Shown one piece after another: positions 3,501 to 28,618 of a DNA stretch of 31,561 bases. Origin of the DNA: a virus; the IMG/VR virus record IMGVR_UViG_3300009503_000598, positions 1-31,561 of that record; one strand, written 5' to 3'. The notes beneath the pieces were generated by a model. It had not been told where the DNA came from and did not search any database. It was given only the letters and a program-made list of their open reading frames with translations. Every line of letters starts with the position of its first letter. Positions within the stretch are counted from its first letter, which is position 1. Position numbers and translations under genes: made by a program.

Positions 3501-3908
3501 ATGAAACTCTATTGCATAAATACTATAACGGGGCTGATGCCACTCTATCCTGCAGATTACGAGGAAAAGAAAAAACTTAAACTCGGTGTAGAATATGAGG
3601 TTGAAGTGCGCACCCCCCGTAATATAGGATTTCATCGGAAATTCTTTGCCCTTCTTAACATTGGCTGGACAAATACAAAACTTGATATGCCATTTGAGAC
3701 TTATAGGAAATATGTTATTATTAAAGCTGGGTATTTTAAAATCTACAAAACACCGAAAGGGCTATTCTATGATGCCGAAAGCATTAGCTTTTCAAACATG
3801 AGTCAAGATCGTTTTGAAGAATTATATTCCAGGGTACTCGATAAGATAATCGAGGATATAGGTATTACAAATGAAGAAATCGAAAAACAATTAATTAATT
3901 TTATATGA
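3501..3908 (+). CDS. DUF1367-like protein (135 aa)
   Basis: The start MKLYCINTITGLMPLYPADYE and the central GFHRKFFALLNIGW are the hallmarks I associate with DUF1367, a family found in phage recombination and replication operons next to SSB and recombinases. The biochemical role is unknown to me. The gene lies 2 bases after ssb, and its TGA overlaps the next start (3905). The family name is from memory of the motif and should be tested by a profile search. Confidence 0.7.
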   Translation: MKLYCINTITGLMPLYPADYEEKKKLKLGVEYEVEVRTPRNIGFHRKFFALLNIGWTNTKLDMPFETYRKYVIIKAGYFKIYKTPKGLFYDAESISFSNMSQDRFEELYSRVLDKIIEDIGITNEEIEKQLINFI

Positions 3909-4369
3909 TAGATTTAATGCGTAATATTGAGATGATTGTCTGTGAAGACAAAAATATTTCTCCTGAAATATTGCATATTAAAACACGATATAGAAAGATT
4001 ACTGAAGTGAAACATATAATAATTTATTTATCTGATTATTTTGCTAAAAGAAGATTGTCTTATAGACAATTAGCGGAATATTTTAACTTAGACCATGCAA
4101 CAGCTATTTATGCTATAAAAAAAATTGATAATTATCAGAAAATTTACTCCACTTATGCATTATTATTAAATCAGTATAAAGAGAAAATAACAATTTTAAA
4201 TGAAAAAAATACTGAAATTGAAAAAAATATTTTAGAAATTAAAAATAAAATACAACAGTCTTTAATTAATAATACAATAATAAATTTAGATGATGTTCTA
4301 AAATACAACAATTTATTTAATTTTAAATGTTTGAAAATCGAACAAGGTTATGAAAAGAAAAAATTATGA
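3905..4369 (+). CDS. DnaA domain-IV-like DNA-binding protein with coiled-coil tail (154 aa)
   Basis: Residues about 30-80 resemble the C-terminal DNA-binding domain of DnaA. KHIIIYLSDYF is followed by LSYRQLAEYFNLDHATAIYA and then IKKI, and DHATAIYAIKKI matches the DnaA signature that contacts the DnaA box (R/DHTTVxHAxxKI). There is no AAA+ domain. The C-terminal half is a low-complexity Asn/Lys/Ile coiled coil. The gene is markedly AT-rich. A stand-alone domain of this kind could bind DnaA boxes in host or phage DNA, helping or diverting the host initiator; that is inference. Confidence 0.75.
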   Translation: MIDLMRNIEMIVCEDKNISPEILHIKTRYRKITEVKHIIIYLSDYFAKRRLSYRQLAEYFNLDHATAIYAIKKIDNYQKIYSTYALLLNQYKEKITILNEKNTEIEKNILEIKNKIQQSLINNTIINLDDVLKYNNLFNFKCLKIEQGYEKKKL

Positions 4370-4834: not shown

Positions 4835-4845
4835 GTGTTAATAAC
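4834..4845. promoter_or_regulatory. Candidate operator, copy 1 (shared 12-mer)
   Basis: The 12-mer agtgttaataac occurs here and at 7648-7659, in both cases just after the stop of a block and upstream of a strong -7 element. Its core GTTA-A-TAAC is a perfect inverted repeat around a central base, as expected for a dimeric regulator site. The distances to the -7 elements differ (37 and 51 bases), so a shared regulatory role is only suggested. Confidence 0.3.
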
Positions 4846-4859
4846 TTTCAGATATCTCT

Positions 4860-4890
4860 TATGATTTATAAAAATTATTGATTATATTTG
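4860..4890 (+). promoter_or_regulatory. Bacteroidota-type promoter for the 4.9-7.6 kb block
   Basis: A perfect -7 element TATATTTG at 4883-4890 matches TAnnTTTG. The -33 position holds only TATG (4860-4863, one mismatch to TTTG) with a 19-base spacer. Transcription would start near 4897, just before the 11-bp inverted repeat that begins at 4900. It probably drives the candidate RNA/leader and the initiator operon. Confidence 0.65.
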
Positions 4891-4896
4891 CAGTAG

Positions 4897-5022
4897 TAAA
4901 CAGCGTAACTATGGATAAGAAATTAATAATATTAAAATATTGCCGGCTTCGGCAGAAAAGCCCAGGGGTTTCAAGTTACGCTGTACCTGACTGGGTTTTT
5001 TGTTTGGGGCCGGCCTTTTTAT
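4897..5022 (+). ncRNA. Candidate structured RNA or attenuator in front of the initiator gene
   Basis: The predicted transcript begins with one arm of an 11-bp perfect inverted repeat (4900-4910 with 4974-4984). The enclosed part has an AU-rich single-stranded stretch (4911-4940), a hairpin TGCCG-gctt-CGGCA (4941-4954) and a second hairpin with loop CAGG (about 4955-4972). That loop can pair with CCTG at 4986-4989 outside the stem, a possible pseudoknot. Two T-rich tracts follow (4996-5005, and 5016-5024 after GGCCGGCC), resembling termination sites. CCCAG (4961-4965) with CTGGG (4991-4995) forms an alternative terminator stem. No known RNA family is recognised. It might instead be a coding leader, as described for 4911-5027. 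Confidence 0.45.
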
Positions 5023-5027
5023 TTTAA
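4911..5027 (+). CDS. Possible 38-residue leader peptide or small protein
   Basis: An ATG 20 bases after the perfect -7 element opens a 38-codon frame that ends at TAA 5025-5027, four bases before the initiator ATG. The peptide begins MDKKLIILKYCRLRQK and ends in a hydrophobic, Trp/Phe-rich tail. The inverted-repeat arm 4900-4910 directly abuts the ATG, so pairing would mask the start. By chance a frame this long is not rare (roughly one in six), so coding status is uncertain; the RNA structure may be the selected feature. Confidence 0.3.
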   Translation: MDKKLIILKYCRLRQKSPGVSSYAVPDWVFCLGPAFLF

Positions 5028-5031
5028 AGTT

Positions 5032-5763
5032 ATGAATAAAGATACTTTCTATTTTTCGCATGATTACAATGCCAGGATGGATGAGAAAATTAAAAATCTA
5101 ATCCGAAAACATGGAATAGAAGGTTATGGTATTTTTTGGGCAATAATAGAGGATTTATACTGCAATAAAAATAAATTAAAAATAGATTACGATGGTATTG
5201 CATTCGATTTACACACGCAAAGTGATAAAATAAAAAGTATAATTCATGACTTTGATCTATTCGTTATTGAGGATGGATTTTTTGGTTCTCTAAGCGTTGA
5301 GAGAAGATTAAAAGAGAGAAACAAGAAGACGGAAAATGCCAAAAAATCGGCACTATATAGATGGAAGAAATCTGGGAAAACCAACGATGCGAACGCAATG
5401 CGAACGCAATGCGAACGCAATGCCAATGCAATGCGCCCCGAAGTCGATCGCAATGCTATAAAGGAAAGGAAAGGAAATGAAAGGAAAGAAAAGGATATAT
5501 ATAAAGAATATAAAGAAATATTTAACGAATTTCGGAAAAATTATCCTGGAACAAAAAGAGGTAATGATATAGAATTTGAAAATTTTATTAAAAAACATAA
5601 AGATTGGAAAGAAGTTTTATTGTTGCTTAAAGAAAGATTGAATTATCAGATAGAAGCAAGGCAAGTTAGAAAACAGAAAAATTTATTCGTGCCAGAATGG
5701 AAAAATTTACAAACATGGATAAATCAACGTTGCTGGGAAGAAATTATAAATATAAATTCATAA
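5032..5763 (+). CDS. DUF4373 (Lin1244/Lin1753)-type replication initiator (243 aa)
   Basis: The N-terminal domain (about residues 1-105) reads as a winged-helix DUF4373 domain: TFYFSHDYNARMDEKIKNL, then GIEGYGIFWAIIEDLYC. The C-terminal region (about 160-240) ends VPEWKNLQTWINQRCWEE, which matches the 'fxpxxxTWLNqxxWED' ending of phage O/DnaD-like replication proteins that recruit the helicase machinery. The linker between them is encoded by DNA iterons. The gene opens the block after the promoter at 4883 and is AT-rich. No helicase or loader is recognisable nearby, so it presumably uses the host helicase. Confidence 0.82.
   Translation: MNKDTFYFSHDYNARMDEKIKNLIRKHGIEGYGIFWAIIEDLYCNKNKLKIDYDGIAFDLHTQSDKIKSIIHDFDLFVIEDGFFGSLSVERRLKERNKKTENAKKSALYRWKKSGKTNDANAMRTQCERNANAMRPEVDRNAIKERKGNERKEKDIYKEYKEIFNEFRKNYPGTKRGNDIEFENFIKKHKDWKEVLLLLKERLNYQIEARQVRKQKNLFVPEWKNLQTWINQRCWEEIININS
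5389..5432 (+). repeat. 11-bp iterons inside the initiator gene
   Basis: Three perfect tandem copies of GCGAACGCAAT occupy 5389-5399, 5400-5410 and 5411-5421, followed by a degenerate copy GCCAATGCAAT at 5422-5432. Because 11 is not a multiple of 3, the protein reads the repeat in three frames, so the repetition is conserved or generated at the DNA level. They encode residues about 120-134, a linker between domains. This is the arrangement of lambda-type origins, where the initiator binds iterons inside its own gene. Confidence 0.85.
5457..5525 (+). other. C-free A/G-rich tract: candidate DNA-unwinding element
   Basis: Directly after the iterons, 69 bases contain no C on the + strand and are mostly A and G (aaggaaagga-type units), turning into ATATATATAAAGAATATAAAG from about 5496. 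A strand-asymmetric purine tract next to iterons mirrors the AT-rich unwinding region of lambdoid origins. Function is inferred from position and composition only. Confidence 0.55.
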
Positions 5764-27954: not shown

Positions 27955-28398
27955 ATGTACTGGCCACCGGAAAATTTTGAACTTGAAGAGCTTGTCTGCA
28001 AACATGTGTTTGACAAATGGGGTTATAACAGCTGGAGTTTCTTTGACGATCGAGCACTCCGGACAATAGATATTATTAGGCGAAGACTCAATAGGCACAT
28101 GATAATCAATAACTGGAAGTGGGGAGGGGAATTTACACAGCGGGGTCTGAGATGCAACCAGTGCCAGCTTATCAAGGACAAGACAGAGGCAGGAATAGTC
28201 TATTGCACCCCGCATGTTCGGGGCATAGCTTTTGATTTTGATGTTGAGGGCATGGTGGCAGAGGAGGTGAGACAGTGGCTGATTAAGAATAAAGTAATTT
28301 TACCAGTGCCAATAAGACTTGAAGCAGGAGTTAATTGGGTGCATCTGGATATAGCACCAGTGCCAACACTTGAAAAAATAACTTTATTTAATCCATAA
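27955..28398 (+). CDS. Endolysin, M15-type peptidase (147 aa)
   Basis: Zinc-dependent L,D/D,D-peptidase fold of the M15 (VanY/DUF882-like) group: the first metal site is PHVRGIAFDFD with His87 and Asp94, and the second is NWVHLDIA with His130. These are the HxxGxAxDF and W.H.D. motifs of the family. The protein has no signal peptide, so it should need the holin to reach the cell wall. It would cleave peptide cross-links of peptidoglycan. Neighbours are holin- and spanin-like genes. Confidence 0.86.
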   Translation: MYWPPENFELEELVCKHVFDKWGYNSWSFFDDRALRTIDIIRRRLNRHMIINNWKWGGEFTQRGLRCNQCQLIKDKTEAGIVYCTPHVRGIAFDFDVEGMVAEEVRQWLIKNKVILPVPIRLEAGVNWVHLDIAPVPTLEKITLFNP

Positions 28399-28402
28399 AA
28401 TT

Positions 28403-28618
28403 ATGAAACTAAGTATCGAAAATCTGAACAAGCCTTCTGACCGAAAATGGAAACGAGTGGCTGATTATCTGCTCTACACGGCACTGCCGGCAATCAACAT
28501 TTTCTTTGTCACCCTTCAGCCGGTATCCGCAGAGTTTTCTCTGTGGGGTGCTGCTATATCTTCCCTGTTAATAGCTCTGTTTAAGGGTGTAACAAAATTT
28601 ACTGCGGAGGAAACATGA
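28403..28618 (+). CDS. Holin-like protein with two membrane segments (71 aa)
   Basis: After a charged 22-residue N-terminus, hydrophobic segments run at about residues 23-41 (DYLLYTALPAINIFFVTL) and 47-62 (LWGAAISSLLIALFKG), separated by a short Pro/Ser/Glu loop, with a polar C-terminus. Size, two segments and position directly after the endolysin fit a class II holin. Its stop overlaps the next start (ATGA). Confidence 0.75.
   Translation: MKLSIENLNKPSDRKWKRVADYLLYTALPAINIFFVTLQPVSAEFSLWGAAISSLLIALFKGVTKFTAEET

Follow-up and report, generated by a model that had tools for sequence, protein, structure and literature searches.

A putative terminator-type RNA leader with loop-to-5'-end complementarity ahead of replication genes in phages of Bacteroidota

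The replication initiator gene of a viral record of 31,561 bases (the whole stretch analysed, hereafter the window) is preceded by what we read, with a probability of about 0.6, as a cis-acting, terminator-type control leader. In the window it carries a leader ORF that would be coupled to the gene, and its control would depend on pairing between two complementary segments, A and B. The element occurs in many copies, with unrelated-looking sequences, across phages of Bacteroidota. Bacteroidota are dominant gut bacteria and, to our knowledge, replication control in their phages has been little explored. The leader reading rests on the architecture of the element, its recurrence, the covariation of A with B, the openness of the leader ORF and its overlap with the gene start.

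The leader occupies the slot between the end of an HNH gene (4834) and the start of the initiator (5032), and all its features lie on the plus strand:

4883-4890, plus strand: -7 promoter element TATATTTG, a perfect fit to the Bacteroidota consensus TAnnTTTG
4900-4910, plus strand: segment A, ACAGCGTAACT, the first arm, exact complement of 4974-4984 and adjoining the leader ORF AUG
4911-5027, plus strand: leader ORF of 38 codons, its ATG adjoining A and its stop 4 nt before the initiator ATG
4942-5014, plus strand: long terminator-type hairpin in the minimum free energy (MFE) fold of 4897-5031 (strands 4942-4952/5004-5014, 4955-4965/4991-5001 and 4966-4969/4985-4988)
4942-4947 with 5009-5014, plus strand: GCCGGC with GCCGGC, part of the long hairpin
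4961-4965 with 4991-4995, plus strand: CCCAG with CTGGG, read directly
4963-4966 with 4986-4989, plus strand: CAGG with CCTG, read directly
4974-4984, plus strand: segment B, AGTTACGCTGT, the second arm, complementary to A and making up 11 nt of the 15-nt apical loop 4970-4984
4996-5001, plus strand: T6 tract after the inner CCCAG/CTGGG stem, a possible first termination point
5016-5025, plus strand: TTTTTATTTT tract after the long hairpin, intrinsic-terminator-like; most relatives have a T-rich tract after the stem
5032-5763, plus strand: replication initiator gene (Lin1244_N, Pfam PF14297, E 3.3e-11; phage replication initiation protein family, phrog_2562, E 5.2e-17)

The original prediction had placed the -7 box, the 11-bp repeat, the two short complementarities, the T tracts and the 38-codon ORF here, and direct reading of the sequence finds every coordinate correct, including the ATG that abuts the first arm. 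A and B are the sole two such sites in the window, even with one mismatch permitted. For a perfect inverted repeat of 11 bp whose arms lie this near and contain 5 or more G/C, the expectation over the whole window is 0.16, and any perfect 11-bp inverted repeat arises in 0.9% of shuffles of 4841-5031. Lower-scoring descriptor matches elsewhere in the window lie mostly inside genes and were set aside as chance. About 0.7 kb upstream of the initiator, an ORF with a DnaA C-terminal DNA-binding domain (3905-4369; PF08299, E 2.5e-11) adjoins a NinB/Orf-like gene (3501-3908) and possibly belongs to the replication module.

The leader is more stable than shuffled sequence. Folded from 4897 to 5004 it reaches -28.4 kcal/mol (z = -2.24, equalled by 3/200 shuffles), and over the full leader, 4897-5031, the MFE is -41 kcal/mol (z = -2.80, equalled by 2/200), both energies coming from models that leave A-B loop pairing out. 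The shorter fold gives the 11-bp stem around small hairpins, as had been proposed; the full leader departs from that picture, since CAGG/CCTG, CCCAG/CTGGG and GCCGGC/GCCGGC nest into one long terminator-type hairpin and the 11-bp repeat becomes a pairing between the loop of this hairpin and the leader 5' end. With A upstream and B in the apical loop, A-B pairing is possible in principle while the hairpin stands, as a loop-to-5'-end pseudoknot. Alternatively, the 11-bp stem could form in place of the long hairpin. A stable hairpin and a U tract thus lie between promoter and gene, as in an intrinsic-terminator attenuator, with two weak points in the window: the run of T in T5AT4 is broken by an A, and T6 is itself paired in the lowest-energy fold.

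Covariance models of Rfam release 15 gave no match at or above the gathering cut-off for the window element, in agreement with the original prediction, which recognised no known RNA family. The same release gave no leader match in 16 member loci. Its sole match there was a permuted tmRNA (RF04321, 49.8 bits) at 3398-3631 of L086, a 52-kb viral contig that also has a leader element elsewhere.

Does this architecture recur? Nucleotide searches with the window leader in 50,697 phage records and with the exact two-arm pattern in IMG/VR gave no match. A terminase query found no near relatives, the L042 element was not found in phages, and a prophage-based search of 393 genomes from a single host order yielded only 3 protein matches. 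The regions upstream of initiator homologues show a window-like layout in different sequences. We described this layout by a promoter box, an A-B helix, a loop-to-tail helix and a T run. At a score of at least 40, the first loci gave 8 real matches against 0.25 in shuffles, which carry no coding constraints; both the descriptor and the subfamilies used below were picked after the first examples had been inspected. Two later sets were scanned with the first-stem threshold relaxed from 18 to 14 and a cut-off of 36, and identical settings were applied to their shuffles. Upstream of initiators that we take to be DUF6291-like, 24/66 regions matched (0.4 expected from shuffles), and upstream of window-type initiators 15/59 did (0.6 expected). 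About 60-75% of the scanned initiator upstream regions fall below threshold, and some of these, the group of L298, L310, L312, L318 and L324, are missed by the descriptor while being clearly of the same design. Weak matches in crAss001, in tRNA genes or coding sequence, were rejected as chance.

The element is not initiator-specific: some members stand ahead of HNH, pRha antirepressor or unknown genes. One 78-kb contig has several candidates. In relatives the -7 box stands 97-157 nt ahead of the gene, and TTG/TTTG is clustered 22-26 nt before the box, where a -33 element would be expected; a clear TTTG is absent at that distance in the window promoter. A hairpin encloses B in 27/27 folded members, with 10-40 enclosing pairs, and ends 0-23 nt before the gene. 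The members take two forms. In form I (the window, L042, L205, L210, L011, L342, L292 and others), segment A adjoins, or nearly adjoins, the leader ORF AUG. In form II (the L211, L298 and L332 groups and others), each segment sits in a hairpin loop, A in that of a 5' hairpin and B in that of the terminator hairpin; as modelled, form II is a pair of kissing loops, usually without an ORF.

One member belongs to an isolated phage, Bacteroides fragilis phage B40-8 (L174), at 28381-28491 ahead of a pRha gene, and is therefore open to bench testing. The first ~75 nt of its leader are identical in BF766P1 and BF702P1, with differing flanks. Differences within the 17-bp hairpin of these two phages all keep pairing, and one A-B pair is lost in BF766P1. 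Among 11 regions from B. fragilis phages related to B40-8, the leader is kept only in these two; the others differ upstream.

Two further features of initiator loci were seen. Just upstream of the initiator in L293, L295, L296, L300, L301, L307, L311 and L314 is another conserved leader (GGTTGCTCAGGCATGGGCGTAAAAGG...CACGTT). Its CACGTT is matched by two copies of the complementary AACGTG, one of which lies at the gene start codon. The initiators of L011, L022, L023, L028 and L016 have dissimilar N-terminal parts and one common C-terminal domain ending in WKNLQTWINQRCWE (or close to it), which, from sequence comparison, suggests domain swapping.

The A-B helix is conserved as pairing. In three alignments of close relatives it is paired in every sequence (100% of cells) and broken in none. 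Compensatory changes, which the original prediction would lead one to look for, are present: 3, 2 and 4 A-B pairs changed on both sides in the three subfamilies (9 in total), the independent changes being fewer than the cells counted since relatives share ancestry. The whole-structure covariation score was matched by 0/500 shuffles in three subfamilies, with slid controls near zero. Within the window's own subfamily (window, L042, L210 and L205) the signal is weaker (8/500 shuffles): both sides have changed in two A-B pairs, one of which shows three pair types. Covariation was counted only within close subfamilies because a MAFFT alignment of all kissing-loop members is unreliable.

Could the repeats act as DNA instead, as a replication origin or as inverted repeats bound by a protein? 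Its place beside a replication initiator would fit, as would the inverted repeats, which origins often contain. However, G-U pairs are retained in the helices, which favours RNA function over DNA, members also precede non-replication genes, the orientation is fixed downstream of the promoter, and complementarity between a loop and a 5' end has no clear DNA role. We regard a DNA-level element as very unlikely.

A more serious alternative is that the leader works mainly in trans, as an immunity or copy-control RNA. A terminated small RNA of ~110-130 nt would present loop B to segment A of other genomes' transcripts and turn the initiator off, A and B serving as a compatibility code in the manner of the CI RNA of phage P4, which offers a precedent (PMC4825925). 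B is exposed in a hairpin loop, and A and B stay complementary while diverging fast: between L211 and L214, 8/16 A-B positions differ, all compensated, against 3/88 elsewhere. Such clear hypervariability is seen in only one close pair, however; in the others the rate of change in A and B is similar to that in unpaired bases. This reading also draws on a third segment, namely A repeats like the seqC of P4 at the gene start. B is complementary to the gene-start region over 7-11 bp in 6/35 members (L011, L042, L188, L192, L194 and L212, of which L192 and L194 are close relatives), and L292 has a similar repeat by eye. At a looser score of at least 14, the segment is found 7 times, against 0.93 in permutations. 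The window has no such segment C. A mainly trans-acting RNA is a tentative possibility. An antisense RNA reading was dropped, minus-strand TAnnTTTG boxes, the one box type counted, showing no clear enrichment (5 against 2.3 expected in 43 leaders).

The leader ORF is kept open as far as the gene in about half of the members tested. The frame of the first ATG after the promoter is open to at most 12 nt from the gene in 14/30 non-redundant members (5.5 in shuffles, P=0.0002), and the other two frames are open in 2 and 4 of the 30. In long-ORF members the stops fall mostly from -12 to +32 nt of the gene ATG, usually overlapping or abutting the start codon, with an exact ATGA overlap of ORF stop and gene start in L002, L041, L176, L342 and L023. 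Leader peptides are poorly conserved: the four nearest are 3-36% identical to that of the window. An open ORF that overlaps the gene start and encodes so variable a peptide fits a translated, coupled leader better than a functional protein. Thus, where a small RNA, a translation-sensitive attenuator and a tiny protein had originally been offered as options, the RNA and the ORF both appear real, given recurrence, covariation and the open frame, while a standalone tiny protein was rejected, the peptides being too dissimilar and many members having no ORF.

These ORF data also bear on a purely cis translational switch, in which A-B pairing and the hairpin would govern ribosome entry at the leader ORF, and at the initiator by coupling, without any termination. 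ORF conservation, the ATGA overlaps and the complementarity of B to the gene start in some members are consistent with it, and there are precedents in the RepY-RepZ pseudoknot of ColIb-P9 and the leader peptide of R1, as represented among the works cited in PMC10724649. Against it, nearly all members have a hairpin with a U tract behind it, those without an ORF included, and we consider a switch of this kind doubtful. It is hardly credible that the element is an ordinary intrinsic terminator accompanied by chance repeats and a chance ORF. A hairpin with a T tract is commonplace in itself, and the window ORF alone is open in 10% of shuffles, but the recurrence and covariation counts disfavour this explanation.

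For the terminator-type leader, the following course of transcription, termination and translation, with any effect in trans, is inferred. RNA would start from the promoter at 4883 and soon meet the terminator-type hairpin, which ends just before the initiator start codon, while B, in the hairpin loop, could pair with A near the RNA 5' end. If the leader ORF is translated, the ribosome would open the hairpin, transcription would pass and the ribosome would re-start on the initiator. If A and B are paired, leader translation would be blocked, the hairpin would stand and little initiator would be made. Leader translation would be the releasing event in form I; as many members lack a leader ORF, translation coupling cannot be a universal step. 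As B would be part of the terminated RNA, this RNA could in addition target newly made transcripts in trans, so that expression would be subject to negative feedback or to immunity governed by a sequence-specific code. The idea has appeal in that the A and B sequences make up a private code.

More broadly, these leaders may, as a tentative suggestion, represent an undescribed, widespread class of RNA devices in Bacteroidota phages: self-complementary terminator leaders with a phage-private code of loop and 5' end, limiting replication-gene expression in trans as well as in cis. Mutual exclusion would then be expected between related phages that share a code, and a changed code would confer compatibility. 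The recurring architecture ahead of initiator genes, with its compensated changes, would offer a direct and testable way to predict interference between phages. Searches in the style of Rfam miss such RNAs because only complementarity and layout are kept, not sequence. An earlier description of the leader was not found in the open-access literature searched, which does not prove novelty; one microbiome RNA survey describes a palindromic motif associated with Bacteroidetes phages, HMP2_4078 (PMC8040213).

Several known systems resemble the leader in part. With no Rfam match, no clear antisense promoter enrichment and no seqC in the window, membership in the P4 CI, R1/ColIb or Rfam families is not claimed. 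At the IsrK locus of the Gifsy-1 prophage a single promoter yields a short RNA as well as a read-through mRNA containing small ORFs; the same is predicted for the leader, though fold, host and targets differ. As in pT181, a terminator-type hairpin lies just upstream of the rep gene; attenuation there is driven by countertranscripts, whereas none is seen here. In satellite phage P4, CI RNA pairs with seqA upstream and seqC downstream, causing premature transcription termination of the replication genes (PMC4825925). The present leader shares with this immunity system its position ahead of replication genes and a central segment complementary to an upstream, seqA-like one. The downstream complementary segment is restricted to the 6/35 members, termination is known in P4 and proposed here, and CI is a processed RNA, to which no Rfam similarity is found. 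The R1 (IncFII) copA/copT-tap-repA and ColIb-P9/IncB RepY-RepZ systems, whose leader-peptide and pseudoknot control are treated in works cited in PMC10724649, also combine an initiator leader, a short ORF positioned for coupling, hairpins and long-range loop pairing, with specificity set by loop sequence. Theirs, however, is an antisense RNA from the opposite strand, whereas here clear antisense promoter enrichment was not found, and both segments lie on one strand, one of them in a terminator-type hairpin. By analogy, the leader suggests an RNA device that limits phage replication, akin to plasmid copy-number control, and a recurring RNA architecture with compensated change would bring tailed phages into the range of plasmid-style RNA control.
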